From Bdellovibrio sp. (GTDB lineage: Bacteria; Bdellovibrionota; UBA1018), in the NCBI GenBank assembly GCA_016185105.1, contig JACPOE010000028.1:32197-66754 (forward strand): 34,558 bases of DNA, written 5' to 3'. A program made the position numbers and the translations under genes. Positions 11,403-34,166 of the stretch are shown here, piece after piece; the first letter of the stretch is position 1; every line of letters begins with the position of its first letter. The notes under the pieces are model-generated. The model had not been told where the DNA came from. It was given only the letters and a program-made list of their open reading frames with translations, and ran no database searches.

Positions 11403-11406
11403 TAGC

Positions 11407-11422: not shown

Positions 11423-11494
11423 TTAGGTACCTGTAATGAACTGCTTTAGCTGGACGATCAGCAGGCGCCCAGTCTCACCTTAGGTCAAACCAAC

Positions 11495-13024: not shown

Positions 13025-13039
13025 AAATAACGAAAACGA

Positions 13040-18032: not shown

Positions 18033-20137
18033 ATAAGGGAGTTTAATTTCTTAATTTGATTTTGGGGGTCGGAAATCTCAAAGGCTCGCTTTGGTCCAAC
18101 CTTCTGATACTGCATTCTTTGATTCCGATCGAGAGAGAGAAAACGGGAGAGAGCATTCGCAAGAAGATCGCTCTTAGGTTCGGCTAAAAGAATCCCTATG
18201 TTTTGGGAAACGGTTTCACTTGGGCCTCCGTATCCTAAAGTAATGATCGGAAGGCCGCTATACATCGCTTCAATAAAAGTAATGCCAAAGGGTTCTGGGC
18301 TGAGGTTGGGCTGAACAAACAGGTCCGACGCTTGCATAAGGTCGTATACATCTTTTCGATCCCCCAAGAACTCGACACGACGATCTAAGTCCAATCTAGT
18401 GCAAAGGGATTTGAGATCATTCAGATAGTGAACTTCCTTTTTTCTCTGAGCACCCCCGACGATTAGAACTCGCCAATTCTGTAATGAGGTGAGTTTGCCG
18501 AGTGCTTCAAGAAGGAGTAGGTGGCCTTTCCAGGGCTCCATTCGGCTGACTTGAAGAATCACGAAATCATTCTCGGACAGGCCCAGCTTTGCTCTAACGG
18601 CTGCTCTGGAAGAGTCAGCGTCCGAACTGGTTGAAGGTGGAGGAACCGGACAATAAATAACGGAGGTAGAAACATCTTTGAAAAAGGGCCGAATTGTTTT
18701 TTCAGTATAACCGCTGTTACAGATAATTTTGTTAGGCTTGATTCTCAGTGATAGCCTTTCTAACCAGTCTTTACCGCGGAATCCATCATGAGCCCAAAAG
18801 AACAGAGGAATATCGGCTTTTCTGACGGTGTCTCCGAAGATTGCGTAGGACCACGGAGCATGGCAGATCACTGCTTCAAACTGCTTAGCTTCTAAGAGGG
18901 TTTTTAAATTTTTCCTAGCTTGTCTTAGGGTCCATGGCCGGCTCCATCTGACCGAGACCGGGGCGTCTGCACTGACACCATTCAGAAAATAGACATTCGC
19001 ATTAGACCGAAGCAGCTCTTCAGACAGTCGTCCCTTGAAACACAGAGCAAAATGGTGCTGGGTTCCGGGTTCTTTTTTTTGAAACTCTGCAAGAGTTGAA
19101 AGAACTTTTTCGATGCCGCCGTAGAGATTTCCGCTGTAAATATGAAGCACCGACTTGGTTTCCCCCAGAGGCCTAGTCAGGGTTAAATTCGTATTTGCTT
19201 TCCCTTGGCTCCAGGAAATCAGGCTCTTGGCGATTACGGGCCAGTCGAAAGTTTGAAAGTAGTAGGCTTCCCCCTTTTCCCCTAACGGAGGTCTGGTCCT
19301 GATGGCTTCTATTACCTTTTCGATGAACTCTTCTTTCCTCTCAGTGTGGGTAGTTACGCAGAATGAACTCCAAGGAACCTTTCCCAAACTTCCATAGCCC
19401 ACAGTGGTTAGGACAGGACGTCCGTGGGCAAAAGCGGCCATGGTAGTAGAGCGGCGAGTAGAGATTCCGTCCATAAACGGCGCTAGAACAAGGTCCGAGG
19501 CTAGAAACCAGGCAGAAACCTCTTTTTCAGAGAGGAAGCCTTTAAAAATAATTTCGTTTAAAAAGGGGCTGTCCGACTCTTGAAATTGGTCAGGCGTGAC
19601 TCCTACACAGACTAATCTAACTTTTGCTTTTCCAAAGATTTCCCGCGCTCGAGCATAGCTTTCGAAAACGAAGTGATACAAGTGTGTCGGGTGCTTTCCT
19701 CCGAAATGAAAGAGGAGTGTCTCATCTTCATGGATTCCATTTTTTCTTCTAAATTCTTTTATAAACTCGGGGTTAACAGATTCCGGTCTTACCGAGATAT
19801 TGCTTGCAATCGGAGCCCAAGAAATTTTTTCACTAGAAAAAGGAAGCCATTTTGAACGGTGGCGTAGTTTTTTACAGAAGTGTTCCGTCGAGCAAAAAAT
19901 CTGGTCGCAAATCCAGGTGAGGGCCAGGGTCTGAAAAAAGTGAGGTATTCCTAAAAGGATGCCCTTTAGGGAGAGGCTGACGGGATAGTTTAATTCGTGG
20001 GCAATTAGAACCACAGGCTTGCCTAGTTTTCTGCTCAACAACCAGAGCCAGATTGAAAAACCGGGTCCAACTCCCAGAGTTTCGGGTGACATGGCCTGCG
20101 TGGAAAAGGGCCGGTTAAAATCGCAATTCTCATCCAA
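18029..20137 (-). CDS. Two-domain GT4-type glycosyltransferase with a disrupted N-terminus
   Basis: The open frame gives 702 residues with two tandem glycosyltransferase modules, about 15-310 and 328-702. The second is a canonical GT4 module with LYGGIEKVLS, VSRMEPWKGHLLLLEAL and the EPFGITFIEAM (E-x7-E) donor site. The first has PVVLIAHELNYPV, LLFHFGG and STRRSTTMAAFAHGRPVLTT but lacks its N-terminal Rossmann strands. The frame's own start is a TTG at 20137. Four bases away, ATG 20133 has a GGAG six bases upstream and reads MRIAILTGPFPRRPC, a typical glycosyltransferase N-terminus, but in another frame that stops after 32 codons. I infer an internal deletion with frameshift. It probably adds sugars to the polysaccharide repeat unit. 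Confidence 0.8.
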   Translation of the reverse strand: MDENCDFNRPFSTQAMSPETLGVGPGFSIWLWLLSRKLGKPVVLIAHELNYPVSLSLKGILLGIPHFFQTLALTWICDQIFCSTEHFCKKLRHRSKWLPFSSEKISWAPIASNISVRPESVNPEFIKEFRRKNGIHEDETLLFHFGGKHPTHLYHFVFESYARAREIFGKAKVRLVCVGVTPDQFQESDSPFLNEIIFKGFLSEKEVSAWFLASDLVLAPFMDGISTRRSTTMAAFAHGRPVLTTVGYGSLGKVPWSSFCVTTHTERKEEFIEKVIEAIRTRPPLGEKGEAYYFQTFDWPVIAKSLISWSQGKANTNLTLTRPLGETKSVLHIYSGNLYGGIEKVLSTLAEFQKKEPGTQHHFALCFKGRLSEELLRSNANVYFLNGVSADAPVSVRWSRPWTLRQARKNLKTLLEAKQFEAVICHAPWSYAIFGDTVRKADIPLFFWAHDGFRGKDWLERLSLRIKPNKIICNSGYTEKTIRPFFKDVSTSVIYCPVPPPSTSSDADSSRAAVRAKLGLSENDFVILQVSRMEPWKGHLLLLEALGKLTSLQNWRVLIVGGAQRKKEVHYLNDLKSLCTRLDLDRRVEFLGDRKDVYDLMQASDLFVQPNLSPEPFGITFIEAMYSGLPIITLGYGGPSETVSQNIGILLAEPKSDLLANALSRFLSLDRNQRMQYQKVGPKRAFEISDPQNQIKKLNSLI

Positions 20138-20160
20138 TTCTCCACCAAGACGTTTGAAGA

Positions 20161-20724
20161 CTACTTTCGGGTCAATACAATTCCCACTGCGACGATAGAA
20201 AGGACGCTGGCGACAAAAGAGACTAGAACACCCATATCCTGGCTAATAATCGGCTTCTTTTGAGGGATGACCACGACGTCATTTGCCTGCAAAATAGGAG
20301 GCTTTGTACCAGTTCCCTCAAGCAGGTCTTCTGCATCGACATCGAGAACGATCTCTTTACCTCGAGACCATCTTTTAATGTAGACCCCGCCCAGTTTGGC
20401 GCTCTCAGTTGGACCGCCCGCATAAGACATGAGTGTAATCAGGTCCGTCTGAGTAGGTACAAAGTGAATACCGGGTTTCCCAACTGCCCCCCAAAGATTC
20501 ACCCGCATTAAAACAGCTCCCGGATAGTCCCCCGAGATAAACTCGCTACCTTGACCCGCCTTCATCGAGCCCAAGTCTTTCGAAACAGATAGGCCCGTAG
20601 TTAGGTCATCGGCTCGGGCCGAAGCAAAGGGGTAGAGTAGGGAGGCCGGAAATACTGCCTCGATCGCCAGTTCGAAAATCAAGAATAAGACCAAAGATCT
20701 TTTTAGTCCGTGATTCCATTTCAT
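20161..20724 (-). CDS. SLBB-domain polysaccharide export protein with C-terminal membrane anchor
   Basis: This encodes 187 residues: an N-terminal signal or anchor segment (about 10-37, ending ASARA), one SLBB domain (about 67-150) with VNLWGAVGKPGIHFVPTQTDLITLM and AGGP, and a C-terminal membrane helix MGVLVSFVASVLSIVAVGIV followed by LTRK. SLBB domains occur in Wza-type export channels, but the polysaccharide-export (Poly_export) domain is absent, so this is not a complete Wza. The start overlaps the stop of the upstream BY-kinase gene in an ATGA arrangement, implying coupled translation and a shared task in export. Confidence 0.85.
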   Translation of the reverse strand: MKWNHGLKRSLVLFLIFELAIEAVFPASLLYPFASARADDLTTGLSVSKDLGSMKAGQGSEFISGDYPGAVLMRVNLWGAVGKPGIHFVPTQTDLITLMSYAGGPTESAKLGGVYIKRWSRGKEIVLDVDAEDLLEGTGTKPPILQANDVVVIPQKKPIISQDMGVLVSFVASVLSIVAVGIVLTRK

Positions 20725-23039
20725 TTGTTTTTCCTAAACTCGTTTAATGTAACTACATAAGGGGTAAATTCATGGGCGGTCTTGGGGACGTCATTTAGAA
20801 CTCCAAAGCAGCGGCGGTGGCTGATTTGGAAGACTTTTCTGTGAGCGAGAAGCAACGAACTGCGTTTGGTGATTCGATACCGTGCCACTAGAACTACCGC
20901 ATCTGTGACTCCAGCGATAACGGGTGCATCTGCTACATAGACTGAAGGAGGGGCGTCCAAGACGATGTAGTCGTAGTGTTCGTTCAGAGTCTTCAGCAGG
21001 GTCTTAAATCGCTCACTTCCCACAAGTTCCGTTGGATTAGGCTTGAGGGGTCCAGCAGTGATGACATCCAGATTCTTGATTCTCCCTCTAAATAGAAACT
21101 CAAGGTAGTCTGAATCTTTGTTTGTTAATAGCGTTGAAAGCCCTTCGTCGTTGGTCAATCCAAAATATTTATGAACTGCCGGAGCCCGGATGTCGCAGTC
21201 TAGAAGAAGAACTCGAACATCCATTTTTGCCAGACTTACCGCTAGATTCGAAGCAAAAAGGGACTTTCCTTCGTGCTTGTCAGTTCCGCTTACGGTGATC
21301 GTCCGAACAGGGTTGCCCATGCTATTTAAGGATACCTTCAGTTGTTCACGCAAATATTTGTAAGCCATTGCTTCGGGAGAGTTAGGTCGAGATTCGCAAA
21401 CTAGGAGATCTGGATTGATTTCATCGTGCTTGAATTCGCCGAGCTTGGATTCCACATGGGGTACGTTTCCTAAGAGAGTAAGATCGAACTCTTCCAGCTC
21501 AGATGCGTGACGAACGGTTGTGTTCGTCAGTTCAATGACCATCACCAGAACAACTCCTAAAAAGATTCCAACTAAAATAGCAAAGGGTAGTCGAAAAATG
21601 AGACTGAGTCGAACTTCCCTAGGAGCTGCCAAGGTCAGTCCGTCTACACGAATCGATGGCTTAACTGTCAGTTTTTGAATCTCAATATCCTGAAGTTTCT
21701 TTTTGAAGGATGAATAGAGTTCGTAATTGAGTTTCAGACTTTCGCTACGAGAATAAAGCTCCTGTTCAATTTTAGGTATTTTAGAGGCCGATTTAAGAAA
21801 CTGGGCTTTGGACTCTTCGAGAGCCTCCAGCTGTGTATTCAACTCTTTATTCATGTTTTTCAAATCGGAAATCTTGCCGTTAATAAGCGCTGAGCTGACT
21901 GGAAGCTCGTCAGAGTCAGGCATTTTTCCCGATTGGAGCAGTCTACGGAGTTGTGAAGCGATGGTTCGGATAGCGGAGTTCACTTCAGCGACGCGAGAAT
22001 CCGATTCTGGGAGCCCCTCTGAGACCATGAGATATTTTTGACGTCTTAGATTGTCGAGCTGTCGTGAGAGAATTCTCGGGTCTTTTTGGTTTACTCGGTC
22101 CGGCGCTTTTCCTCTTAAGATCGAGGAAGTGTTTTCAGTAAGTTTCTTTTGATACAGCCGGATCAGACTCTCGTTTTCGTGAATCTTAAGGCGTGCGGTA
22201 GAAATTTGATTTTCAATCGTACTTGATCTTATCGAGGCGGTTTTCTCGCTATCGTTGGGGCCCAGAATTCGGTTTTGTTTTTTGAATTCTACGAGTTCTT
22301 GTTCCTCTTTTCTCAGCTGAGCGTTGGACTCTTCAAGGCGGATGCTGATAAACTTGTGGAGTTCGTTCAGATCATTGAGCTCTTGATTCAGGACGGACTT
22401 TACGTAGACCTGGCCTTCTAGATTTGCCAGGAATATTGCGGTCCGAGGATCGTAGGATCTCACTGACAGGGTAATCCACTGGGATCCTTCCGGGGTGACG
22501 GTGGTCGCTTCCTGTAAAAGAGAGGCGAGAAATTCGATGTTTTCTCGGGTCACCTTTGCGGGCGGGGTAATGCTAATTTTTTCGTCTACCACGGGCTCGG
22601 TTGAGAAACGATTGCGGAATCGGATCGACCAGAACTTGGATCTGAAAATCGATAGGTCGCTGGGTTGGGTGAAATCCAATGTTGAAAATTCAGGGAGTTT
22701 GACGAGTGCTTCAGCGACCATGATGTAGAAACTTCCTGCTTTGAGGCGAGAGAGATGTCGTGCAACTTCCTGGGACTCATCGTAGTAGCCCCCCATTCCC
22801 ATTTCTCCCATGCCCAGACGTGAGAACACATTGTCTCTTTTCGAAAGGACCTCTAGACGAGTCGGTGCGGAGTAGCCTGGAATGAACAAGAGATGGCTAA
22901 TAATCGAGCCGATCAGGGTTAGGACCGTGACAAAAATAACGTACTTCCGCTTCTCCTTCAGAACATATAAAACTTCTGAAAGTTGAATGCGGTCCTTGGC
23001 GTTCGATAGTGGTTGGCGGCTTTCTTTGGGGCCTGCCAT
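20721..23039 (-). CDS. Wzz/BY-kinase polysaccharide co-polymerase
   Basis: This 772-residue inner-membrane protein combines a Wzz chain-length domain with a bacterial tyrosine-kinase domain. Membrane helices lie near 33-53 and 484-504, framing a large periplasmic part with coiled-coil stretches (about 220-310 and 385-455). The kinase domain has Walker A GTDKHEGKS (585-593), Walker A' LLLDCD (611-616) and Walker B IVLDAPP (692-698). The C-terminal tail carries a single tyrosine (Y761) instead of the usual cluster of autophosphorylated tyrosines. A GGAGGAG motif lies about 14 bases before ATG 23039. It is the first gene of a minus-strand unit with the SLBB and two-domain glycosyltransferase genes. 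Confidence 0.9.
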   Translation of the reverse strand: MAGPKESRQPLSNAKDRIQLSEVLYVLKEKRKYVIFVTVLTLIGSIISHLLFIPGYSAPTRLEVLSKRDNVFSRLGMGEMGMGGYYDESQEVARHLSRLKAGSFYIMVAEALVKLPEFSTLDFTQPSDLSIFRSKFWSIRFRNRFSTEPVVDEKISITPPAKVTRENIEFLASLLQEATTVTPEGSQWITLSVRSYDPRTAIFLANLEGQVYVKSVLNQELNDLNELHKFISIRLEESNAQLRKEEQELVEFKKQNRILGPNDSEKTASIRSSTIENQISTARLKIHENESLIRLYQKKLTENTSSILRGKAPDRVNQKDPRILSRQLDNLRRQKYLMVSEGLPESDSRVAEVNSAIRTIASQLRRLLQSGKMPDSDELPVSSALINGKISDLKNMNKELNTQLEALEESKAQFLKSASKIPKIEQELYSRSESLKLNYELYSSFKKKLQDIEIQKLTVKPSIRVDGLTLAAPREVRLSLIFRLPFAILVGIFLGVVLVMVIELTNTTVRHASELEEFDLTLLGNVPHVESKLGEFKHDEINPDLLVCESRPNSPEAMAYKYLREQLKVSLNSMGNPVRTITVSGTDKHEGKSLFASNLAVSLAKMDVRVLLLDCDIRAPAVHKYFGLTNDEGLSTLLTNKDSDYLEFLFRGRIKNLDVITAGPLKPNPTELVGSERFKTLLKTLNEHYDYIVLDAPPSVYVADAPVIAGVTDAVVLVARYRITKRSSLLLAHRKVFQISHRRCFGVLNDVPKTAHEFTPYVVTLNEFRKNK

Positions 23040-23068
23040 AATTGTCTGGATGCTCCTCCTCAGAATGC

Positions 23069-23076
23069 GTATCGGC
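23069..23076 (-). promoter_or_regulatory. GCCGATAC box upstream of the Wzz/BY-kinase gene
   Basis: Read on the minus strand, GCCGATAC lies 30 bp before ATG 23039, a plausible -10 position. It resembles the box at 17407, but no good -35 element is found at the sigma-28 spacing. Confidence 0.2.
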
Positions 23077-23210
23077 TATTCGTCCAGGGTTCTTGATCAA
23101 AAAGCGTTTAACTTCAAAAAGATTCGATTCTACAGGAAGTATTTATGCAGTGTGTAAACTAATCAGAATAGATTAAGTGTTTCCAGGAGAAAACCGTAAC
23201 GATAGATGAG

Positions 23211-24668
23211 ATGTGGAAGACTCTTGCAGAGATCGCTTTTGGCACGGTATTGGTTGGAATTCCTATTCAGCTCCTTAACTTGAAGCTTGCCCGTAGATTT
23301 CAATGGGTTGATATACCGTCTGCTAGAAAAAGACACAGAGAGTCAGTTCCGATCACTGGCGGGGTTGCGGTAATTTCGACCTGGGCCATATCAGTAGGGG
23401 GGTTTTGCCTACTGAATCCTGCCTGGGCATCAGAGAATCAGCAGGCGCTCATTACTCTGGCTGTAGGATGCGGCGTCTTAGTCATTCTGGGATTGGTGGA
23501 TGATTTACGCGGCCTGTCACCTGGCTGGAAGCTTGCTGTGGAGTTTTTGCTTGCTGTAGGGGTTTTAACCCAGATTCCAGAGGTTACCGAAATTTGCTCC
23601 ATCTGGTCACATAAAATTGGTTTAATAGTCTGGCCTCTAGCCATTATCTGGATTGTTGGCATTACCAACACGATTAATCTTATTGATGGGCTGGATGGTT
23701 TAGCTGGTGGGACCTCTTTGCTGGTCCTAACCGGAATTGGGTTCCTGTGTCTGTTAGTTAAGACTCAGGCAATTCTCCCTATCGTTTTGACTGGATTACT
23801 TGTTCCGTCTGTGGCCGTTTTCCTGGCCTTGAACTGGTCACCTGCTCGGATTTTTTTAGGCGACAACGGAAGTCTCCCGCTCGGTTTTGTGATTTCAGTC
23901 ACAAGCTTGATGTGTCGCCCCCATATGAATTCCTGGATTATGATTGCCAGCATGGTTCTGATGTTGGGCTATCCTATTGTGGACACCGGATTAGCGGTGT
24001 TTCGCCGATATAGCAAAGGCCAGCCGTTGTTTAAGGCGGATCGGTATCATCTTCATTATCGAATCCAGAGACTAGGATTGACTACTCGTCAGACGGCTCT
24101 TCTTTTACTGAGTCTGAGCCTTTATCTTCAATTTACTGGAATTTGTGTCAATTTCCTTCAACCCTGGCAGGCAGGGCTTGTGATCGCTATCTCGATGGGA
24201 AGTGTCATTTCCCTTTTGCAACTCGTGTTTTCGATTGAACAGCGCAGGGTAGTGCGTCTGTTTCACCAGCTCCAAAACGATCCAGAGTACAAGAATTCGG
24301 AGAATGTCGCTAGTACCCGAACCGTCATTCATCTTGAAATTGGTGTTCTTTTAGAGACAGCAAGCGAGGACTCCGCTCTTCCGTACCTCCAAGTGATGAG
24401 GGCGCTTGAATTGCTTCTGAAAACAATGATTCGTAGAGAAGATGCGATTATCCTGAACGATCAAAAACTTTCGATTATTTTGGAAGGCAAGCTCAGTCCT
24501 CATGGCGAGGTATCAGCGCTGGTGACTCGCCTTAAGGCCAAGTTAGAGGCTTTTCTGACTCTCTATGGAATCCAAGGGTCTTTAGCTAGTATTCCAATCA
24601 AGGTAGAACAGCTCGTCTACGTTAAGCCCCAGGACACGTCCAATCCTCGAGTGAAAAAAGTAGCTTAG
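23211..24668 (+). CDS. WecA/TagO-like undecaprenyl-phosphate sugar-1-phosphate transferase with extra C-terminal domain
   Basis: This encodes a polytopic enzyme of the PNPT (MraY/WecA) family that transfers a sugar 1-phosphate, often GlcNAc-1-P, to undecaprenyl phosphate, the first step of repeat-unit synthesis. The motifs are DIPSARKRHRESVPITGG, the aspartate pair D97-D98, NLIDGLDGLAGG (156-167), FLGDNGS (215-221) and the HLHYR box (280-284). About ten membrane helices end near 340. Residues 365-475 are an added soluble domain whose pattern (IHLEIGVLLE, RREDAIIL, NDQKLSIILEG, then an amphipathic helix) resembles a degenerate GGDEF fold. Length 485 against about 360 for WecA. Divergent from the Wzz/BY-kinase gene. 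Confidence 0.88.
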   Translation: MWKTLAEIAFGTVLVGIPIQLLNLKLARRFQWVDIPSARKRHRESVPITGGVAVISTWAISVGGFCLLNPAWASENQQALITLAVGCGVLVILGLVDDLRGLSPGWKLAVEFLLAVGVLTQIPEVTEICSIWSHKIGLIVWPLAIIWIVGITNTINLIDGLDGLAGGTSLLVLTGIGFLCLLVKTQAILPIVLTGLLVPSVAVFLALNWSPARIFLGDNGSLPLGFVISVTSLMCRPHMNSWIMIASMVLMLGYPIVDTGLAVFRRYSKGQPLFKADRYHLHYRIQRLGLTTRQTALLLLSLSLYLQFTGICVNFLQPWQAGLVIAISMGSVISLLQLVFSIEQRRVVRLFHQLQNDPEYKNSENVASTRTVIHLEIGVLLETASEDSALPYLQVMRALELLLKTMIRREDAIILNDQKLSIILEGKLSPHGEVSALVTRLKAKLEAFLTLYGIQGSLASIPIKVEQLVYVKPQDTSNPRVKKVA

Positions 24669-24677
24669 TAAACAGGC

Positions 24678-25103
24678 TTAAGGATTTTCGTCTTCCTGGT
24701 TATCCGTCTGCGAAGGATTTAAGTGAAGTAATTCGGATACAATACGAATCAACTCTTCAATCAAAAAAGGCTTAGCGAGGTAGACTGGGAGCCTTTGGCT
24801 TCCCTGGGTCTTCTCTAGAAATTGAAGGGTCGAGATACCGGAAATGAACAAAAACTCAGTGTGTGGAAACTGGGTTTCCGTAACCTTCCAAAGGTCAAAA
24901 CCGGTCATACTTCCTTGGAGGGTGACATCCGAGATGATTAAATCATAATGGAATTTTGGATTAAGGGCCTGGGACATCATTGTTGGGGCGATTTCATCTG
25001 CGCTGTCAGCCGTGTCGATTTCACAGTCTGGCAGAAAATCCAATAAGGCTTCCATGATCATTTCGCGTAGGGCAGCATCGTCTTCGACTAATAGAAACCT
25101 CAT
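24678..25103 (-). CDS. Single-domain response regulator (receiver, CheY-like)
   Basis: This encodes 141 residues with a receiver domain only: acidic pocket E7-D8-D9, phosphoacceptor D60 in IISDVTL, S89 in FLFISG and K112 in LAKPF. There is no output domain; the last about 15 residues are polar and acidic. It sits between the WecA-like gene (convergent, 9 bp gap) and the Wzy-like gene, so it may relay a histidine-kinase signal to polysaccharide production; no kinase is present in the window. Upstream is AT-rich (TATAAAAT about seven bases before the ATG) without a clear ribosome-binding site. Confidence 0.88.
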   Translation of the reverse strand: MRFLLVEDDAALREMIMEALLDFLPDCEIDTADSADEIAPTMMSQALNPKFHYDLIISDVTLQGSMTGFDLWKVTETQFPHTEFLFISGISTLQFLEKTQGSQRLPVYLAKPFLIEELIRIVSELLHLNPSQTDNQEDENP

Positions 25104-25159
25104 AGGGTTATTTTATATCAATTTAATATAGTTGCTAGGGGCTGACTAAACAAAGGTAA

Positions 25160-26632
25160 CTACCTAGTGGGTAGGGCAGTTGGCTTTGACATGAAATAGA
25201 TTCGGACCAGGGTTCCAGAGAAAAACCAGAAGAACGCACCTTCGGGGTTATAAAGAATGGGTTCGGCTCCGTACGCACCGACCAAGATCGCAAAAAGCGT
25301 AAAGAAAAGCGTATTATGAAGCGGTCGAAGGTCAGGATCCTGAGTACGGAACCCCTTTACCGCATAGTAGCAAATTGAAATTAGGATCAGGGTGTAGATA
25401 AATGCACCGGGAATTCCCAAGTCTACGACGAGCTCGACCCAAAGGTTGTCAGCAAAGAACTCCTCTGAGAAGGATTTGTCTTTCTTGATCAGGTCTGAAA
25501 ATTTACCAGCGGCGGAACCACTTCGGGAAAGACCTGCTCCGAGGGGGGCTTTTGAGGCGTAGCGTAGAAATCGATCTAATGCTCCGGATCTGGCGCGCTG
25601 GATAGATTCGAGGTTAAAAAGAGTCAGGGTTCGTTTAACTGCCATTTCGTTGGTCGAACCTTTTTCGCTAATCGTGTCCAGAATGTAGGGAGTGAAAGAG
25701 GCGATGAGGATACCTCCGATTCCAATTCCCGTTAAAATGAGAATCCGAGCTTTTGCAGAAATTTGCTGAGTCCGAAAAATCGAAGCAGTCAGGTAGCCGG
25801 ACGCTCCCAAGATCGCTTTAAGAAGAGCCGAGCGAATCTGACAAACCAGCATCGTTGCGAGGCAGGCCGGCAGACTGAGAATGAGAAGCAGGGAAAGCAG
25901 CAGGGACCTGACGTGAAAGATGAAATAAACAATCGTAGGTACTAGCAGATATACAAAAATAGCAGGACCCCCCGGTTGACTGGCAAGTCCCGGCGGACGA
26001 AAGGCATAGCCACGGTATTTTTCAAGCACAGTGATATAGGCGTCACTGATACTGGTGACGCTCGTCGGCCCCACCTTAGCTTGGTAAAGAGAGGTTGCGA
26101 CCTGAAGGAAGCAAATCACTACCCAGGGTACGAGAAAGCCTCTAATCTTCTCTGCGTCATCCGAGAGCATGTAGCCAAAGAAATAGAGGCTGATGATTGT
26201 GACATAAATTTTCATTCCCGCTAAAGAAGCCACGAGGCTAAGCGAATAGGGATTAGCAATGGTGACTAGGAACCAGCCAAAGTGAATGAAAATCAAAGTT
26301 GTGACCGGGGGCATCTGGATCTGTTTGATGTCACGATTGATGATTCTTTCAATTCCTACTTTTACCCAGAGGACGATAATGAAGATATCCGCCCCGATAT
26401 GGATGATCGGGTTATAGTTGGTAATTAGCTTCGCGAATCCTTCTACACCGATATAGAGAAAGAATATTTGGATACAACGATGGAGAGGGAGGAAAAGAAC
26501 CCCCACGCAGCCACCCAAAAGAAGGACGAACATCACTCCCTTCAAGGTAATGGCCTGCATGAGAAAGCCAACACTCAGAGCCAGAATTGCACTTCCGGCT
26601 AATATACTTGACCTGACGAGGGCCTCCGTCAC
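25160..26632 (-). CDS. O-antigen polymerase/ligase-like membrane protein (Wzy-type)
   Basis: This encodes 490 residues with about 11-12 hydrophobic segments, a large loop around 330-390 and the conserved-looking stretch APLGAGLSRSGSAAG followed by FADNLWVELVVDLGIPGAFIY, as in O-antigen ligase/polymerase proteins. Such enzymes join lipid-linked repeat units at the periplasmic face of the inner membrane. The start is GTG at 26632. The sequence is too divergent to tell polymerase from ligase, but its place in a Wzz-containing locus favours a polymerase. It is divergent from the glycosyltransferase gene at 26687. Confidence 0.8.
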   Translation of the reverse strand: MTEALVRSSILAGSAILALSVGFLMQAITLKGVMFVLLLGGCVGVLFLPLHRCIQIFFLYIGVEGFAKLITNYNPIIHIGADIFIIVLWVKVGIERIINRDIKQIQMPPVTTLIFIHFGWFLVTIANPYSLSLVASLAGMKIYVTIISLYFFGYMLSDDAEKIRGFLVPWVVICFLQVATSLYQAKVGPTSVTSISDAYITVLEKYRGYAFRPPGLASQPGGPAIFVYLLVPTIVYFIFHVRSLLLSLLLILSLPACLATMLVCQIRSALLKAILGASGYLTASIFRTQQISAKARILILTGIGIGGILIASFTPYILDTISEKGSTNEMAVKRTLTLFNLESIQRARSGALDRFLRYASKAPLGAGLSRSGSAAGKFSDLIKKDKSFSEEFFADNLWVELVVDLGIPGAFIYTLILISICYYAVKGFRTQDPDLRPLHNTLFFTLFAILVGAYGAEPILYNPEGAFFWFFSGTLVRIYFMSKPTALPTR

Positions 26633-26640
26633 TAATTCAG

Positions 26641-26669
26641 TTTAACCCGCGCGTTTAGACTGGTAAAAT
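26641..26669 (+). promoter_or_regulatory. Promoter candidate for the two-gene glycosyltransferase unit
   Basis: TTTAAC (26641-26646), a 17-bp spacer and TAAAAT (26664-26669, 5/6 to the -10 consensus) would start transcription near 26676, about 11 bases before the ATG, leaving no room for a normal ribosome-binding site. Confidence 0.4.
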
Positions 26670-26686
26670 CATTTATTGTTTCAACT

Positions 26687-27874
26687 ATGCGAATCCTAAT
26701 TCTAGCGCAGGACTATAAGCCGATGGTTGGGGGGATTGCGACAGCTACGCATGAGCTCTGTGCCTCCCTAAGTAGGTTGGACGGAGTCTCAGTCAAACTC
26801 ATGGCGCCTTTTTTTCCGGGCACTGAGACTGAAACTTGGGTTGAAACTGGGTCGGGGTCTCGTCGATCCGGATTTAAGGTCCGCAGGGTTTCGGTACTTG
26901 GAGCATCCTTTTGGAGCATTCTTAAGTGGACCTTCTACTTGCGTTCCGAGATTTCAGTCTTCCAGCCCGACGTGATTTTAAATACCCTTTGGATGCCCTG
27001 TGCAGTGGCAGCCTTCATGAGCGCGGGAAAAATTCCAGTATTTACAGTTGTTCATGGGGTGGAGATTCTGGAATCAAACCGAACCTTCAAAAAGAGGGTT
27101 CGTGCACTCCTTTCCTTTTTTAAGAAATGGATTTTTAGAACTAACGCTGCAGTTTTTGCGGTAAGCGAGTTTACCGCTAGACTCGTTGTGGAAAAAACAG
27201 GAATTCCATCGAATCGGGTAAAAGTTATTTATAATGGGGTGGACTCACAGCGATTTCATCCGAAGTCGGCAGATAAGGCTCTCCGCGAGAAGTATGGGGT
27301 TCAAGACGGTTTTGTTTTTCTGACGCTTAGCCGGTTGGAGGATTACAAAGGCGTAGATCGCTTTATTGAATCCATGCAAACGATACACTTTGCCCATCCT
27401 GAAGCGGTCTATTTGGTGGCAGGAAGCGGACCTGACCTTGCGAGGCTCGAGGCATTGCGTGTGCAATTTAATTTGCATTCTCATGTGCGGTTTATTGGTC
27501 CGGTTCCAGAACAGGATCTCATCGAAATTTTCAATATATGTGATGTATTTGTTCTTCTTTCTAGAGATGATCGGGTGACCCCGAATTTCGAAGGACTAGG
27601 AATCGTATTACTAGAGGCCGGAGCCTGCGGCAAGCCAGCGATTGTCGGAAATTCCGGGGGAATGCCGGAGGTCGTCTTGGATCGAAAAACGGGCTGGGTT
27701 GTCAGTCCAGAGAACTGCGATGAAATTGTGGCTGCTGCTTTTGAGGCGATTCGAGATCGGGAACAAACAGAAGTTCTAGGCCGAGCGGCGCGCGAGCGGG
27801 TTCAAGATAGATTTACTTGGGAAAGGGTAGCAGAGGATGTGGTGAAGGAACTGAAAATCCATCTGCGAGGCTAA
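26687..27874 (+). CDS. GT4-family glycosyltransferase
   Basis: This encodes 395 residues with the GT-B fold. The N-terminal domain starts MRILILAQDYKPMVGGIAT with the glycine-rich loop and has H123 in FTVVHGVE. The C-terminal donor domain has LSRLEDYKGVDRFIES, VAGSGPDL and the E-x7-E motif E302-E310 (EGLGIVLLEAGACGKPA). It is expected to be a retaining, nucleotide-sugar-dependent enzyme acting on the lipid-linked repeat unit on the cytoplasmic side. The sugar is unknown. The next gene follows after 3 bp, so the two are translationally linked. Confidence 0.92.
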   Translation: MRILILAQDYKPMVGGIATATHELCASLSRLDGVSVKLMAPFFPGTETETWVETGSGSRRSGFKVRRVSVLGASFWSILKWTFYLRSEISVFQPDVILNTLWMPCAVAAFMSAGKIPVFTVVHGVEILESNRTFKKRVRALLSFFKKWIFRTNAAVFAVSEFTARLVVEKTGIPSNRVKVIYNGVDSQRFHPKSADKALREKYGVQDGFVFLTLSRLEDYKGVDRFIESMQTIHFAHPEAVYLVAGSGPDLARLEALRVQFNLHSHVRFIGPVPEQDLIEIFNICDVFVLLSRDDRVTPNFEGLGIVLLEAGACGKPAIVGNSGGMPEVVLDRKTGWVVSPENCDEIVAAAFEAIRDREQTEVLGRAARERVQDRFTWERVAEDVVKELKIHLRG

Positions 27875-27877
27875 ACT

Positions 27878-29086
27878 ATGACGCAAGGACAGAGTCTAAG
27901 CGTGTGCTATTACGGCGTGGCTTCTCACTTAGGAGGAGCCGAGCGCAGCCTTTTGGATCTCTTAATACAGCTCAAGAGGACAGGCGAGCTTTCTAAATCC
28001 TGGGTGCTTTTGCCGAAAAATGGTCCTCTGGTTGATGAGCTTGTTCAAGCTGAAATTCCCTTCCAAGTTCTTCAGATGCCTGCCTTGATCTTAAAGACGA
28101 CACGAGGAGCGCCCTTTAAATCAATCCTTTTCGGAATTCTCGGGCTCCCAGCATTTTTTACTTATTGTATTCGTCTGATACTTTTATTGCGCCGTCAGAA
28201 GCCAGATCTCATTCATACAACAGGATTGAAATGCCACTTCATAGCGGCTTTTTTAAAACCATTTGTCAGAAGACCTGTACTTTGGCATTTGAGGGATATT
28301 TTGCGGCCCGGGGTGACATTGTCCCTCTTAAGATTTACTGAAAGAGTGTTCAAGCCCAAGTTGGTTGCGAACTCGCGCGCTACTGCCCAAGCCTATGGCA
28401 GTCAAGCTCCGGTACAAAATTTAATGCCATTTGTTTATAATGGATTCGACTCAAAACGATACTATTCTAATCCAAATTCCTATTTTAGGGACTCGTTTCA
28501 GGTGTCTGAAAACATACCTATTATTGGGATCATTGGGGTATTGGCTCGATGGAAAGGGCAGGTCCAGTTTTTAGAGATGGCTGGAGTATTGACCCACAAA
28601 GGGCGGGCCGCTCGGTTTGTGATTGTGGGCGATCGTATCTACGATACGGGGTTGGACTCCGGCTATGAGGAAGAGCTAAAGACCCGCGTAAAGGAGTTAG
28701 GGCTAGAAGGAAGAGTTCTGTTTACTGGTTTTTTAGAGGACGTCAATCGGGCGATGAATGGCCTTACCGTTTTGGTTCATGCATCCAATCAGCCTGAGCC
28801 TTTTGGAAGGGTTCTCGTGGAAGCTTTAGGGTGTGGAGTCCCCGTAGTAGCATCGGCTGCTGGCGGAGTTCTCGAGGTTATTGAACACGGGAAAACAGGA
28901 TTGCTCTTTCCTCCTGGAAACGTAGATGCAATGGTGGACGCAGTCAGCTCGCTATTAGATCATCCCGAAGATGCTCGCCGTATGGCTGCCGAAGGAAGAT
29001 CGGTCTTCCTGTCGAAATTTTCTATGGAATCCTACGCAGCGGAGATGGGGAAAATATATAAAAGCGATTTAATCACGAGCCAGTAA
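27878..29086 (+). CDS. GT4-family glycosyltransferase
   Basis: This encodes 402 residues with GT-B architecture: SHLGGAERSLLDLL near the N-terminus, IGVLARWKGQVQFLEM at the domain junction, the E-x7-E motif in QPEPFGRVLVEALGCGVPVVAS and GVLEVIEHGKTGLLFPPGN. It looks full-length. It starts 3 bp after the preceding glycosyltransferase gene; its 3' end overlaps the convergent gene at 29073 by 14 bp. Donor and acceptor sugars are not predictable. Confidence 0.92.
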   Translation: MTQGQSLSVCYYGVASHLGGAERSLLDLLIQLKRTGELSKSWVLLPKNGPLVDELVQAEIPFQVLQMPALILKTTRGAPFKSILFGILGLPAFFTYCIRLILLLRRQKPDLIHTTGLKCHFIAAFLKPFVRRPVLWHLRDILRPGVTLSLLRFTERVFKPKLVANSRATAQAYGSQAPVQNLMPFVYNGFDSKRYYSNPNSYFRDSFQVSENIPIIGIIGVLARWKGQVQFLEMAGVLTHKGRAARFVIVGDRIYDTGLDSGYEEELKTRVKELGLEGRVLFTGFLEDVNRAMNGLTVLVHASNQPEPFGRVLVEALGCGVPVVASAAGGVLEVIEHGKTGLLFPPGNVDAMVDAVSSLLDHPEDARRMAAEGRSVFLSKFSMESYAAEMGKIYKSDLITSQ

Positions 29087-30046
29087 GAACGCTTTGGTAG
29101 AGGCTGAGATGGGCTTCGACCATCTTTGGCAGTGAATATTGATTATCAAAGCGTTTTTTCGCGGCTTCGCCAAGTTCTGCGCATAACTGCTTATTTGTAG
29201 TTAGTCGCAGGATTGCGCGTGCCAGTTCATTTGAGTCGGCTGGTCTTACTTGAAAGCCTGTCACTCCATCTGGGTTGACCTCGGAAACCCCCGATTTGAG
29301 TTGAGTCGTGATGAGAGGTTTTCCCTGGCGCATCGCCTCAAGAAGGACCACTCCGAAGGCTTCCGCATGAGTAATCGAGGGCAACACCAGAAATTCACAC
29401 CTTCGGTAATAGCTCACGAGATCCTGATCGTCCTGGACCCTGCCCTCAAAATAGACTCGTTTTTCAAGGCCCAGCCGCGAGACCTCAAGTTTCAGTGCTT
29501 CTTGCTCGGGGCCTTCTCCTACAATGACTAGGTTCAAAGGCATCTGGGTCTGAATTTGCCCCATAGCTTGAATTAAATAAGGGAGCCCTTTGTAGGAGAC
29601 TAATCTTCCGACAAAAAGGAAGTAGGCACCGTACTTTCTAGTCAGCTCCTGTTCTTTCTCTACAAAGGTTTCAAAAGTTTTTGTCTTTGAACTTCTGCGT
29701 GGAACGTCGCTACATAGCGTGGGGCTTCAGGAAGAAAGAGTGAGCCCAGCTCTGCAAGAGGATTGGGTACGTGAAAGTGCAGAACATCGTGCTTTTCAGC
29801 CTCTTTTAAGAGGGTTGGAATGAAGTGTCGGGACAGGGGTTGTGAAAAGAGGGTGAGCGGAGTGGGTACCCGTAGGACTCGGACTCCAGAGAGGTGATCT
29901 TCTGTAATTTGCTTCACCTGGGTGCTGAAGCAAAGCACAGTGACGTCAGTGCCTTTCTCAACCAACCCCTCAGAGAGCGTACGCACCACCGTTTCAATTC
30001 CTCCTAAAGAAGGGGCATAAAATTTACCAACCTGAAGAATTTTCAC
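29073..30046 (-). pseudogene. GT4-family glycosyltransferase, split by frame change and missing segment
   Basis: The 5' part starts with GTG at 30046, overlapping the preceding stop (GTGA), and encodes MKILQVGKFYAPSLGGIETV through ATFHAEVQRQKLLKPL, then TAG at 29660-29662. The 3' part is in another frame that is open through the junction: KTFETFVEKEQELTRKYG, FLFVGRLVSYKGLPYLIQAM, VIVGEGPEQEAL, the E-x7-E motif in HAEAFGVVLLEAM, to the stop at 29073. The two halves make one GT4 enzyme, but the usual stretch between the ATFH(x)E region and the KYG/VGRL segment, which I estimate at 70-80 residues, is absent. Real deletion or assembly error; as written it cannot give a full enzyme. Confidence 0.82.
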
Positions 30047-31215
30047 TTCATCACCTGCGATAGAAAATTTTTGAGAAACTCACGGTGTAAACGCCAGTCA
30101 AACCGCGTCTTGGCAATCTGAAGCGCCTTTTTTTCTAGCTCTTTTCTTAAAGATGGATTGTGGATCAACTTTAGAATTTCTTCAGCAAAACCATTTGGAT
30201 CAGATGCAATCAGAAGGCCATCACCTGAATTTAGCTCCAGGCCCTCGGCTCCCAATTCGGTGCTGACTACACTCTTGCCGACCGAAAACGCTTCCATGAT
30301 TTTTAGGCGGGTTCCGCTACCACTGAGCAGGGGCACGATAATGATCTCGGCTTCTTCGAGCAGGGGGACCATAGAAACTGGGTTTACAATGACTTCAAGT
30401 CCGTTCTGCCGAAGAAACTGTATAAAGACGGGAGATGGGTTTGCACCCGCTACCCGAATGCGGGGGAACAGTGCAGGAGAGATCCGGTTTTTCAAAATGG
30501 GTAAAACTTGTTCTACAAACCAAGTTAAGCCCTCCCGGTTTGGCTCGTAGCTAAGAGTCCCCGTAAAAAGAATTCCACTCTGGTTCGTAGTGCCTTGAGG
30601 TCTTCTGTAGCTTTCGGTGTCTAAGCAGTTGGGTAGAACCTCAACTGTCGCTCCGGGAGCTAGGCGTCTGAGCTGGCCAGCATCTGAGCGCGATACAGCG
30701 ATGACTTGATCTGCAGTTTCACAAAAGACCTTTTCGTAGTGGCGACTTTGCAAAGCGAGGAAAAGATGGGGCCAAGTTTTGACGTTGGACAAAGCGCTCT
30801 GAAAGAGCAAAGAGCTTTCTACGTTGTGTTCATCCAAGACCGTTCGGTAACCAAGCGTTTTGGCAAGGTTTAGGTACTTTCCCATCAAGAGTCTTGAACA
30901 CCATAGAATTTGATTAGGGCGGGAATTCTTTTCGAGGGCCTCCGCCATTCGACTACTGAACCCGTTAACTATGTAGGGACGGAGAGGAAAGAAGACTCGT
31001 TTCAGTCCTGGAGGCTCCCTTGGAATCACACGGATGGCTACATTCTCTGGAGCTGGGGTCTCGGGGTCTCCGTGGAAAGCTAGGATCTGAACTGGGACGA
31101 TGTCTCGAAGAAGCTCTAAAATACAGAAATCTCTTAGCTTGCCTCCGCCATGGGGAGGGTAGGGTAGGTCGTCAGTGAGAAAGACCACTCTTTCCGGCAA
31201 ATCCGTTCTCTGCAT
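30043..31215 (-). CDS. Glycosyltransferase (GT4-like)
   Basis: This encodes 390 residues. Features are FLTDDLPYPPHGGGKLRDF (N-terminal glycine loop), LDEHNVESSLLF, VIAVSRSDAGQL, ILFTGTLSYEPNREGLTWFV and SGSGTRLKIMEAFSVGKSVVST, all seen in GT4 enzymes of exopolysaccharide clusters, including the group often annotated as PEP-CTERM/exosortase-associated sugar transferases. No exosortase gene is visible here. The annotated ATG lies directly next to a GGGAG motif with no spacer, so a start a few codons downstream is possible. The stop overlaps the start of the next gene by four bases. Confidence 0.88.
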   Translation of the reverse strand: MQRTDLPERVVFLTDDLPYPPHGGGKLRDFCILELLRDIVPVQILAFHGDPETPAPENVAIRVIPREPPGLKRVFFPLRPYIVNGFSSRMAEALEKNSRPNQILWCSRLLMGKYLNLAKTLGYRTVLDEHNVESSLLFQSALSNVKTWPHLFLALQSRHYEKVFCETADQVIAVSRSDAGQLRRLAPGATVEVLPNCLDTESYRRPQGTTNQSGILFTGTLSYEPNREGLTWFVEQVLPILKNRISPALFPRIRVAGANPSPVFIQFLRQNGLEVIVNPVSMVPLLEEAEIIIVPLLSGSGTRLKIMEAFSVGKSVVSTELGAEGLELNSGDGLLIASDPNGFAEEILKLIHNPSLRKELEKKALQIAKTRFDWRLHREFLKNFLSQVMK

Positions 31216-31269: not shown

Positions 31270-31902
31270 TTACTCAAACTTCTCAAAAAACCGCTCAAAA
31301 GCGGTATTGGAAAGATTCTCAAGAAAACGGAGCTTTGGGGGGAGGTGAACTGCTTCTACCCGGGCATTAGCTTCGACCCTGTCTTTGGCCTCAGCAATGC
31401 CAGACGTGGTGTTACCCGAGGCTAAATCGGTAAATTTAAGGTCAAACCGAACGCTACCGTCGATCGATTTCGCCTTATAAACCCTTTCAGTCTTTCCATC
31501 GGTGCCATTTTCGTCTGCGAGCTGGGAATCGTAAACTTCTTCTTTGTTGTAACCACTTCTTTCGTCGGCATGAAATTCATCCACACTAACGCGAAGGGCT
31601 ACTTCTGCTCCAGCCCGTTTAGCCAGTGCTTTCCAGTCCGTCGGGTCCTGGTCCAAATGAGAGCGAGCAGACTCGACTGATCCCTTAGAAAGCAGCTCAA
31701 AGGTGCCCTTCTTAACTAGCTGGTTGATCAAGGCAACTTCCGTGACTTTTCGTGCGGTGTCCTCTCCCTCAATAGCTACAAGGGCAATCTTTTTTCCATG
31801 GAGCGCCGACAGAGAAAGCTTGTTTTTTGGGGTGCTTGAACAACCAAATAGGATAAGGGTAACGCCCAAGCTAAACCAAAACCACCCGCGCATGAAACTC
31901 AT
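31270..31902 (-). CDS. Lipoprotein with CsgG/LpoB-like domain
   Basis: This encodes 210 residues with a lipoprotein signal: hydrophobic h-region FWFSLGVTLILFG and lipobox LFGC with the lipidated cysteine at C21. Residues 35-110 (KKIALVAIEGEDTARKVTEV, LINQLVKKGTFELLSKG, AKRAGAEVALRVSVDEFH) have the pattern of the CsgG/LpoB-type fold, where a short beta strand is followed by a helix and an FELL strand. The role is unknown. Start ATG 31902 has AGGAG six bases upstream. It lies 21 bp after the zinc-ribbon protein gene, probably in one transcript. Confidence 0.75.
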   Translation of the reverse strand: MSFMRGWFWFSLGVTLILFGCSSTPKNKLSLSALHGKKIALVAIEGEDTARKVTEVALINQLVKKGTFELLSKGSVESARSHLDQDPTDWKALAKRAGAEVALRVSVDEFHADERSGYNKEEVYDSQLADENGTDGKTERVYKAKSIDGSVRFDLKFTDLASGNTTSGIAEAKDRVEANARVEAVHLPPKLRFLENLSNTAFERFFEKFE

Positions 31903-31923: not shown

Positions 31924-32379
31924 TCAGCCCATCGAAATCGCGTTACCTGCATGAATTAACACTTTAATATCATTGCGAAAAATGACTTCTAGCTTATTTG
32001 GGTAAATCAACTTCCCAACAATCCCGTCACCAAAAGTCGGGTGATGAAGTTTGTCCCCGAGGTCGAATTGGGTCTTCATGCTGTACGGTTTCACTGGATG
32101 GTCTTTATGGGTGGCCATCAGCTTTTCCCACTCCGCTTCAATGGAATGAGCAGCTTCTTCTACAGAGGCTTTCTTTGCGCGAGAGGTCTTAGGACCAGGC
32201 TCACTAGCACCTTTAGGGGCGCGATAGACATGTTCTTTTTTGCACGTGAGGCACTGAACCTTGGCAATCCGCTCTCCTTTCATTGCAACAATGATGTGAT
32301 TTAAGTCCATTTTGCAACTAGTGCAGTATGCCAGCGTTTCTTTAGCAACCGACGTGGCGCCAGACGCGTTCCGAGCCAT
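31924..32379 (-). CDS. Zinc-ribbon and Tudor-like (UvrD/CarD-type) domain protein
   Basis: From ATG 32379, set by a strong AAGGAGAT site, this encodes 151 residues (the frame is open further upstream to 32454, but that part overlaps uvrC). Two CxxC pairs, C19/C22 and C43/C46, form a zinc ribbon. A lysine-rich segment and a helix (72-92, EEAAHSIEAEWEKLM) follow. The C-terminal part (about 104-148, FDLGDKLHHPTFGDGIV, then KLEVIFRNDIKVLI) resembles the small Tudor-like module at the C-terminus of UvrD/PcrA and in CarD, which bind RNA polymerase. The function is unknown; a link to transcription or repair is inferred from the fold and from the divergent uvrC. Confidence 0.75.
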   Translation of the reverse strand: MARNASGATSVAKETLAYCTSCKMDLNHIIVAMKGERIAKVQCLTCKKEHVYRAPKGASEPGPKTSRAKKASVEEAAHSIEAEWEKLMATHKDHPVKPYSMKTQFDLGDKLHHPTFGDGIVGKLIYPNKLEVIFRNDIKVLIHAGNAISMG

Positions 32380-32390
32380 GAAAGATCTCC

Positions 32391-32441
32391 TTAAAATGAT
32401 AATCCCTTTTGTGGTTATAGTGTACTTCGATGGAAAATCAA
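32391..32441. promoter_or_regulatory. Overlapping divergent promoters of the zinc-ribbon gene and uvrC
   Basis: On the minus strand TTGATT (32441-32436), a 16-bp spacer and TATAAC (32419-32414) form a good promoter with a start near 32407, 28 bases before ATG 32379. On the plus strand TATAGT (32416-32421) can serve as -10 for uvrC with a start near 32427, almost at the ATG; its -35 (TTAAAA, 32391-32396) is weak. The two -10 elements share the same bases. Confidence 0.45.
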
Positions 32442-34166
32442 GCTTCGAAACCAAACCAGGCTCCTCGGACTGAATTATTGGAAAGAGCGCGTGAGGCTAA
32501 GACCGGCCCAGGCGTCTATCTGATGAAGGATATTCAAGGAGTTGTATTATACATCGGCAAGGCCAAAAATCTGCGAAATCGGCTCGTTTCGTATTTTCAG
32601 TCCTCTGTTCACGAAATTCCAAGAGTCGAGCTTTGGGTGTCCCGGGTCCAGCGGTTCGATGTGATCCTGACTGAGACTGAAGCCGAGGCCCTAATTTTAG
32701 AGGCGACTCTTGTTAAGAAGAACAAACCGAAATTCAATATTCGTTTAAAGGACGACAAAGCCTACCCTTATTTAAAAATACAAATAAACGACTCTTTTCC
32801 AAGGATCGAAATGACCCGGAAGGTGTTGTCCGATGGTGCTAGGTACTTTGGGCCTTTCCCTTCTTCGGGGTCTGCAAGACAAGTTATGCATCTTCTGAAC
32901 GAGACCTTCAGTTTAAGAGATTGTTCGGAAAACGTCTTTAGACACCGTAGCAGGCCCTGTATCCTCCACCAGATGGGCCGGTGTACAGCCCCTTGTGTGA
33001 ACTTAATTGAAGCCAACCAATACAGAGACCTGATTTTGGAAGTCATTCGGGTTTTAGAAGGAAAAGCTGACAGAGTCATCCACGAGCTTAGGGTAGGAAT
33101 GAATGATGCTGCCGAAAATGAGGAGTTTGAACAGGCAGCTTTTTTTCGGGACCAGATTCAAAACCTAGATTTAATCACCCAGACCCAAGCGGTTTTTGAG
33201 GCCGGATCACAAAAAGATCGAGATGTGGTGGGATTGGCCAGGCACTCCCAGGAATCTGCGAATGGTCACACCGAAGGACATGCAACTGTATTGAAAATCC
33301 GAAAAGGGAAGCTGATTGCTGTGCAACACTTTCGGCTTCAAAACACCGATATTACGTTACCCGTGGCCGATGTTTTGTCCCAGTTTTTAGTTCAATACTA
33401 TTTGCCCGCTGCTCAATCAGGAGATGGAATTTCGGAAGAAGTCTTGCTTCCGGAGGCTCCTTTGGATCTAGACCTTTTAGAGAAGGCTCTGGGAATCAAA
33501 CCGAGGCTCCCAGAAAATCCCGTTGATCAGCAGCTCCTCAATGTGGCTCGAACTAATGCCGAATACGCTTTAGAGCAAAATGATAAAAAAGAGCGGGGTC
33601 ATGGGATCAAGGCGCTGGAGGAAATTCAAACCAAACTCCATTTGCAGAGGTTCCCGTCGCGGATCGAGTGTTATGATAATTCAAATATTCAAGGTGCGGA
33701 CGCCGTGGCGTCTCGGGTTGTTTTTGTAGACGGTGCGCCTGATAAAAACCTCTACCGACGCTATAAGATTCGGACCATTGAAGGGGCAAATGACTTTGGA
33801 ACGATGAAGGAGGTTCTCGGTCGGCGTTTTTCAAACTCCGAAGAAGACCTTCCGGACCTCGTCGTCGTGGACGGTGGAAAGGGTCAGTTAGCCCAAGCGG
33901 TGGCTATTTTTGAGGAGCTCGGGATCCAAGGGGTTGGGGTGGTAGGTCTTGCCAAAGCCCGCGTTGAAAAGGATTTTCAGGCGGCCGAGGTGAAGTCCTC
34001 GTTTGAGAGGATCTTTATTCCCAATAGAAAAAACCCTGTCCCGCTTCTCCCTCATACAGAGGCTTATAAGCTGCTGACCCACATTCGAGACGAGGCTCAT
34101 CGCTTTGCAATCCAATACCATCGATTGCTTCGATCGAAGAGAACACTGAAGGGTACAAAGGCTTAG
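32430..34166 (+). CDS. uvrC: UvrC, excinuclease ABC subunit C, without the C-terminal HhH domain
   Basis: UvrC makes both incisions in nucleotide excision repair. The GIY-YIG nuclease is at the N-terminus (GVY 28-30, YIG 41-43, LRNR). Cysteines C165, C177, C185 and C189 have the spacing (11, 7, 3) of the Fe-S ligands in E. coli UvrC. A UVR motif follows (ENEEFEQAAFFRDQI). The RNase H-like nuclease has D416 (ECYDNSNIQG), D481 (VVVDGGKGQL) and H557 (DEAHRFA). After RLLRSKRTLK the protein ends with GTKA, where the family normally continues into a helix-hairpin-helix domain of about 60-70 residues. The product is 578 residues. ATG 32430 has no clear ribosome-binding site. Confidence 0.94.
   Translation: MENQASKPNQAPRTELLERAREAKTGPGVYLMKDIQGVVLYIGKAKNLRNRLVSYFQSSVHEIPRVELWVSRVQRFDVILTETEAEALILEATLVKKNKPKFNIRLKDDKAYPYLKIQINDSFPRIEMTRKVLSDGARYFGPFPSSGSARQVMHLLNETFSLRDCSENVFRHRSRPCILHQMGRCTAPCVNLIEANQYRDLILEVIRVLEGKADRVIHELRVGMNDAAENEEFEQAAFFRDQIQNLDLITQTQAVFEAGSQKDRDVVGLARHSQESANGHTEGHATVLKIRKGKLIAVQHFRLQNTDITLPVADVLSQFLVQYYLPAAQSGDGISEEVLLPEAPLDLDLLEKALGIKPRLPENPVDQQLLNVARTNAEYALEQNDKKERGHGIKALEEIQTKLHLQRFPSRIECYDNSNIQGADAVASRVVFVDGAPDKNLYRRYKIRTIEGANDFGTMKEVLGRRFSNSEEDLPDLVVVDGGKGQLAQAVAIFEELGIQGVGVVGLAKARVEKDFQAAEVKSSFERIFIPNRKNPVPLLPHTEAYKLLTHIRDEAHRFAIQYHRLLRSKRTLKGTKA

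Follow-up and report, generated by a model that had tools for sequence, protein, structure and literature searches.

ZRT, a core Cys4–Tudor protein with a UvrD-type barrel that may connect transcription to DNA repair

The open reading frame at positions 31924–32379 (minus strand) of the window (the whole 34,558-nucleotide stretch of Bdellovibrio sp. DNA analysed here, from an assembly of 1.69 Mb in 97 contigs) is a real gene and is core in its phylum. It encodes a 151-aa Cys4–Tudor protein, hereafter denoted ZRT (a label coined here), in which a Cys4 N-terminal module is followed by a basic linker and a helix, and then by a C-terminal barrel; this barrel is of the UvrD type. The presence of a UvrD-type Tudor part, together with the position of the gene beside DNA-repair genes, suggests that ZRT may connect transcription to DNA repair. 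Its most likely role is to tether repair or helicase activities to RNA polymerase (RNAP).

ZRT and its UvrD-type barrel

The features of the gene and protein are as follows:
31924–32379, minus strand: ZRT coding sequence; ATG-started, 151 aa, with relatives across the class and phylum
32387–32392, minus strand: ZRT ribosome-binding site AAGGAG, seven bases upstream of the ATG (read directly)
32224–32343, minus strand: N-terminal Cys4 module, residues 13–52, with CxxC pairs C19/C22 and C43/C46 (alignment, models, Foldseek)
32110–32157, minus strand: helix, residues 75–90, after the basic linker (model secondary structure, charge counts)
31954–32094, minus strand: C-terminal UvrD/PcrA-type Tudor barrel, residues 96–142 (profiles, models, fold matches, contact residues)

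Searches for relatives covered the phylum, with one contig scan (23 loci) using patterns from the window protein only; they located ZRT in 54 of the 58 genomes of the window's class and in 309 of 368 genomes across the phylum (214 of 234 in the good-quality subset). Relatives that bear names are metagenome bins of Oligoflexia, Bdellovibrionales and Bacteriovoracaceae, from which the phylum would be Bdellovibrionota. Of the four class genomes that lack ZRT, two (G009 and G013) are without a uvrC match, one (G026) has a weak uvrC match (E 1.1e-6), and in the last (G032) uvrC starts 14 bases from a contig end; thus, no class genome was seen with an intact locus yet without ZRT. Mobile or viral spread is rejected, since the plasmid search found no relatives and the viral search returned a single viral contig with a match of 35 residues. 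No Pfam or NCBIfam model covers ZRT (the window protein, 48 class members and the distant member L116 were searched), and word searches of the open PMC literature found no description of it. The kind of Tudor is known; its occurrence as a free-standing UvrD-type domain joined to a Cys4 module is new, as far as we have seen. A Tudor-only paralogue, which has an N-terminal tail rich in lysine and lacks the zinc module, is encoded at L085:3586–3990 (G057:C7), and Tudor-only matches resembling it are also present in other genomes (L137, L149 and L161).

Residues invariant in the 48 aligned class relatives include C19, C22, C43, C46, W84, Y99, H113, F116, G117, G119, K129 and F134; phylum-wide, the Cys pairs C19/C22 and C43/C46 are kept in 93–95 of 95 relatives. 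AlphaFold2 predicts for the window protein (mean pLDDT 78.6) a Cys4 module of four strands (13–52), a disordered and basic linker, a helix (75–90) and the C-terminal barrel (96–142; block pLDDT mostly 90–95), and a model of L116 made from the phylum-wide alignment has the same layout (mean pLDDT 89.5). The charged helix proposed in an earlier, sequence-only reading of this DNA is present, following a linker with a median net charge of +3. The zinc ribbon proposed in the same reading stands as regards its two CxxC pairs, which are invariant in 48/48, although the models suggest that these cysteines may belong to a Tudor-like barrel of Cys4 type, and the module may thus not be a simple zinc ribbon. 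The module of the window protein also matches the TFS4 zinc ribbon (7oqy_Y; Foldseek prob 0.92, rmsd 1.7), and, like the TFS/TFIIS and Elf1 ribbons, has a small beta sheet bearing two CxxC knuckles; however, the matches to these proteins are all sub-threshold (a weak Elf1 Pfam match occurs in 11 of the 48 members), whilst the Cys4 module in the better model of L116 matches Tudor barrels (Foldseek prob 1.00 with a best E of 0.018; Z up to 5.8).

The C-terminal barrel is led in its profile matches by the UvrD/PcrA Tudors. The class ZRT profile has two E. coli UvrD Tudor entries as its top matches in the PDB (E 0.024 and 0.031), and the phylum-wide profile finds E. coli UvrD Tudor at E 0.0041 and 0.0049, followed by T. 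thermophilus UvrD at 0.0071. Using hhalign, ZRT scores 96.1% against the Tudor tails of the same phylum's UvrD and 89.3% against a single such tail. In the structural comparison, where rows within Z 1 of each other count as tied and values of 5 or less are classed by the tool as common and are weak alone, the M. smegmatis UvrD1 Tudor comes first (Z 5.0, rmsd 1.9 over 44), with the PcrA Tudor (Z 4.5, rmsd 1.4 over 41) and the UvrD C-terminal domain on the RNAP lobe (Z 4.5) and on UvrB (Z 4.2) close by; UvrD/PcrA Tudors hold ranks 1, 5, 6 and 12. For the L116 model, the best 50 structural matches are filled by the N-terminal module and contain neither UvrD nor CarD. The profile matches, the fold comparison and the 96.1% hhalign result together confirm the UvrD/PcrA-like Tudor module that had been claimed, and a fold check against the UvrD C-terminal domain, set in advance as a test of that claim, found similarity, with Z at most 5.

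The likeness to the UvrD/PcrA Tudors (PF21196; PDB 5dma, 6yi2, 7egs, 7egt and 9dqs) comprises the barrel fold, the H-x-x-F/W-G-x-G motif, and the K and L contact residues. The differences are that ZRT is not fused to a helicase, that its barrel is preceded by a Cys4 module and basic helix, and that its members score under the PF21196 (PcrA_UvrD_tudor) curated cut-off: four of 48 match weakly (best E 0.032), the window protein has no match at E ≤ 10, and no ZRT member among the matches listed passes a Pfam cut-off. ZRT has both the Tudor fold and the H, F/W, K and L contact residues of a UvrD/PcrA Tudor; as a free-standing frame of 151 aa, it is not the C-terminal part of an SF1 helicase.

The likeness to CarD that had also been suggested holds at the fold level (4kbm; Z 4.0, rmsd 1.9 over 42) but fails at the sequence level, where kinship with CarD or Mfd is rejected. 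Two of the 48 members match PF02559 (CarD_CdnL_TRCF) weakly and under its cut-off (best E 0.042), and hhalign against the window's own CdnL gives 2.2%, a comparison handicapped by the use of one CdnL sequence, although a single UvrD tail still gives 89.3%. CarD/CdnL and the RNAP-interaction domain of Mfd have in common with ZRT the Tudor-like fold, found there in RNAP-binding proteins; they differ in that a sequence relationship is not clear, and true CdnL and Mfd are encoded separately. A PF02559 match occurs in 58/58 class genomes; in nearly all of them it lies in an open frame of Mfd size, and the majority also have one of CdnL size, so that ZRT is an extra factor which replaces neither.

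In PcrA, the H681A, W684A, K712A and L714A substitutions each severely reduce RNAP binding (PMC5397179). The counterparts of these residues in ZRT, with the PcrA–UvrD–ZRT register taken from the profile alignments, are H113, F116, K139 and L141. Among 95 relatives, the histidine and the phenylalanine are each kept in 95 and the leucine in 94, and position 139 is K or R in all 95 (69 K, 26 R). The H, F and G of the ZRT motif may owe their conservation to folding and not to binding.

According to a second account (PMC8318588), the docking site of the PcrA Tudor on the RNAP beta subunit is a D-x-x-T-G-E hairpin, this helicase interaction motif is also present in B. subtilis UvrB, and UvrB competes with RNAP for PcrA. 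RpoB was recovered from 15 genomes of the phylum (a 16th, with no RpoB match, is left out of the count); the motif is strict in 13 of them and D-x-x-T-G-E is present in 15/15. The RpoB of the window genome (L225) has two strict copies, LDPKTGEVI and VDEKTGEVL. In UvrB, the strict motif occurs in 0/16 loci and a relaxed TGE form in one (L203), as judged with a region pattern that recovered 5 of the 16 UvrB loci; a search of UvrC found no such motif. In the window genome, the UvrB motif region reads IDPLRGIRL, without TGE, and UvrB is rejected as the main docking target there; thus, if ZRT docks like PcrA, RNAP is a likelier target than UvrB.

Neighbouring genes

The gene divergent from ZRT in the window and the intervening 50-bp region contain the following features:
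32430–34166, plus strand: uvrC; 578 aa, GIY-YIG, UVR and RNase H domains (Pfam); divergent partner of ZRT
32411–32423, no strand assigned: conserved GTGGTTATAGTG(G/T) element, with a putative promoter role
32416–32421, plus strand (uvrC) and 32419–32414, minus strand (ZRT): −10-like cores within the GTGGTTATAGTG(G/T) element, with a putative promoter role
32436–32441, minus strand: possible ZRT −35 (TTGATT), read directly

uvrC is divergent from ZRT in 53 of the 54 class genomes having ZRT, the 54th being without a uvrC match; measured between aligned ends, 51 of these pairs are separated by at most 260 bp and the other two by 597 and 1422 bp. At the 32 ZRT loci with long flanks, some of which are closely related to one another, uvrC adjoins in 32/32, a 210-aa lipoprotein-like neighbour is present in 13, and an SPFH-type gene lies beyond uvrC in six. 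Elsewhere in the phylum, 80 genomes were hand-chosen from those with a ZRT match, 29 from family f9 and 51 from f10–f29 (f1–f29 being the labels of the genome search), and the divergent pair is present in 26 of the former and in 0/51 of the latter. The neighbourhood test set in advance thus gave a non-random result, with divergent uvrC in the class and in f9 and a helicase (below) in f10–f29, although the pairing with uvrC is not borne out across all relatives; the link to excision-repair genes is conserved, in some clades only.

As regards the proposed promoter shared with uvrC, an GTGGTTATAGTGG-like element lies 5–8 bp upstream of the uvrC ATG in the majority of near relatives, and is found with ≤4 mismatches in 17 of 28 intergenic regions, compared with 8% of shuffles; in contrast, a sigma-70 scan of 2.7 kb gave one site where 2.2 were expected, i.e. 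nothing beyond chance. Since a ribosome-binding-like site near the start occurs in 26/28 near-relative regions for ZRT and in 3/28 for uvrC, we infer that the uvrC transcript is leaderless and that the two genes share a symmetric TATA core. The putative ZRT −35 falls within the first uvrC codons, 16 bp from the −10-like core; these codons (MENQ; 32430–32445) are conserved outside any domain, and would hold this element. The LexA box has the form TTACN3GTAA; it occurs in none of the intergenic regions with a definable uvrC start, and LexA control of the ZRT–uvrC region is rejected. The 578-aa UvrC has no Pfam match to the C-terminal helix-hairpin-helix domain, its last domain match ending at residue 561.

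Within f10–f29, a Rep/UvrD-like helicase is encoded near ZRT in 19 of the 51 sampled genomes. In f11 it is next to ZRT in 14 of 15, with frames that abut, overlap or lie within 90 bp, ZRT being upstream of the helicase gene, co-oriented with it and away from uvrC; in f14, f16 and f19, it lies within about 2 kb of ZRT in one of two, three of four and one of one sampled genomes, respectively. None of the 19 ZRT-adjacent helicases matches the Tudor profile at E ≤ 10, whereas all 30 control UvrD loci do so (23 of these built the profile and seven are independent of it). The helicase beside the ZRT of L116 resembles Rep or a Tudor-less UvrD in that the NCBIfam pcrA and rep models score about equally (554.6 and 551.6 bits, respectively); it differs in falling under both curated cut-offs, and in that the upstream ZRT gene supplies a separate Tudor. 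Of 35 such genomes checked, 34 have an ordinary UvrD-type Tudor match elsewhere at E ≤ 0.1, and in 31 it exceeds the cut-off. ZRT has neither uvrC nor a helicase nearby in 32 of the 51 genomes, including those sampled from f17, f18, f22, f28 and f29, and the pairing is thus clade-dependent.

Proposed role and alternatives

ZRT quite possibly acts as a stand-alone UvrD-type Tudor adaptor bringing excision repair or a helicase to transcribing RNAP, a reading which we hold tentatively; a free Tudor with intact contact residues, combined with two repair-type partners in different clades, makes an RNAP-docking adaptor the best explanation. The C-terminal barrel would bind the beta subunit at its D-x-x-T-G-E hairpin, in the manner of the PcrA Tudor, whilst the Cys4 module (with its predicted zinc), basic linker and helix would hold nucleic acid or the repair enzyme. 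Gene order points to the excision nuclease side as partner in the window's class and in f9 (uvrC, with uvrB nearby), and to a Rep/UvrD-like helicase without its own Tudor in f11, f14, f16 and f19. Overall, excision repair, or a helicase clearing stalled polymerase or R-loops, would be brought to the transcribing polymerase. Why a further tether would be needed is not evident, as the same genomes encode Mfd and an ordinary UvrD with a Tudor (34/35). The proposal of the sequence-only reading that ZRT links RNAP to repair is favoured by the UvrD Tudor fold, the non-random neighbourhood and the conserved RNAP-contact residues, but weakened by the lack of uvrC pairing in 51/51 sampled f10–f29 genomes and by a CarD likeness that is at the fold level only. 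It is possible, if doubtful, that the split-off UvrD-type tether is an exchangeable adaptor, joining UvrBC to RNAP in one set of lineages and lending a Tudor in trans to a Tudor-less Rep/UvrD-like helicase in another, and that it thereby forms a transcription–repair coupling route beside Mfd.

A general RNAP factor of the CdnL/DksA type, working in initiation or elongation and not tied to repair, seems rather unlikely; the proximity of uvrC, uvrB and cdnL would then reflect a housekeeping cluster only. The near-universal presence of ZRT in the phylum is consistent with such a factor, as are the tie that Foldseek makes between the Cys4 module and TFS4 on archaeal RNAP, and the position of cdnL, which is 5–34 kb from ZRT in 16/16 class genomes where a single contig carries the two genes (they are on different contigs in 30 others). 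It does not account for the adjacency of uvrC in all 32 long loci, at which other neighbours are not kept, nor for the second, different pairing of ZRT, which is once more with a repair-type helicase. Many divergently placed regulators control their neighbour and themselves from a shared region, and the divergent arrangement with its conserved TATA core would suit a local regulator of uvrC and ZRT acting from the 50-bp region. This is nonetheless unlikely: the lone helix between two beta modules means that there is no helix-turn-helix in the models, ZRT in f11 heads a helicase gene rather than facing uvrC, and ZRT is retained where uvrC is not nearby.

Use of the barrel for RNA, as in the picocyanobacterial Tudor protein PSHCP, would make ZRT an RNA- or ribosome-binding protein. 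The PSHCP Tudor (6nnb) matches the N-terminal module of the L116 model (Z 5.8, rmsd 2.3 over 52), the linker is basic, and there are weak NCBIfam matches to S27e (E 0.073) and to a Zn-ribbon RNA-binding family (E 0.12); since the matches of the C-terminal barrel are led by UvrD Tudors, the barrel keeps protein-contact residues, and gene order indicates repair, we regard this as decidedly unlikely. Finally, ZRT might compete at the beta TGE hairpin, keeping UvrD off RNAP and limiting backtracking. Its interface residues are the same as those of UvrD, nearly all of the genomes checked have a UvrD with its own Tudor, and competition of UvrB and RNAP for PcrA is reported (PMC8318588), but competition alone leaves the pairing with a Tudor-less helicase unexplained, and appears very improbable.

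The contribution of UvrD to transcription-coupled repair is disputed (PMC8318588), in our opinion partly because tether and helicase form one protein and the helicase serves many purposes; a separate tether gene would let polymerase docking be removed without touching the helicase. The reading of ZRT as an RNAP-docking adaptor would also give a function open to testing to a protein that is core in a phylum that includes predatory bacteria.

Wider neighbourhood in the window

Two further genes of relevance lie on the same contig as ZRT:
10896–11402, plus strand: cdnL, encoding a CarD/CdnL-type RNAP-binding factor
13040–15229, plus strand: uvrB

Together with cysS, these genes occupy 10896–15229. 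In L046, the order cdnL–cysS–uvrB–ZRT–uvrC is contained within about 7 kb, and uvrB is about 1–2 kb from ZRT in several relatives. For this reason, a block of glycosyltransferase/exopolysaccharide-type genes (18029–31215, assigned by eye from the open reading frames), located in the window between the uvrB/thioredoxin-domain gene and ZRT–uvrC, looks inserted into an older repair cluster. The lipoprotein-like 210-aa gene that is beside ZRT in 13/32 loci lies at 31270–31902 (minus strand) and is without a Pfam family. At the other end of the window, 242–9118 (minus strand) holds a type II secretion-like cluster with pseudopilins and GspF-, GspE- and GspD-like frames, named by eye.
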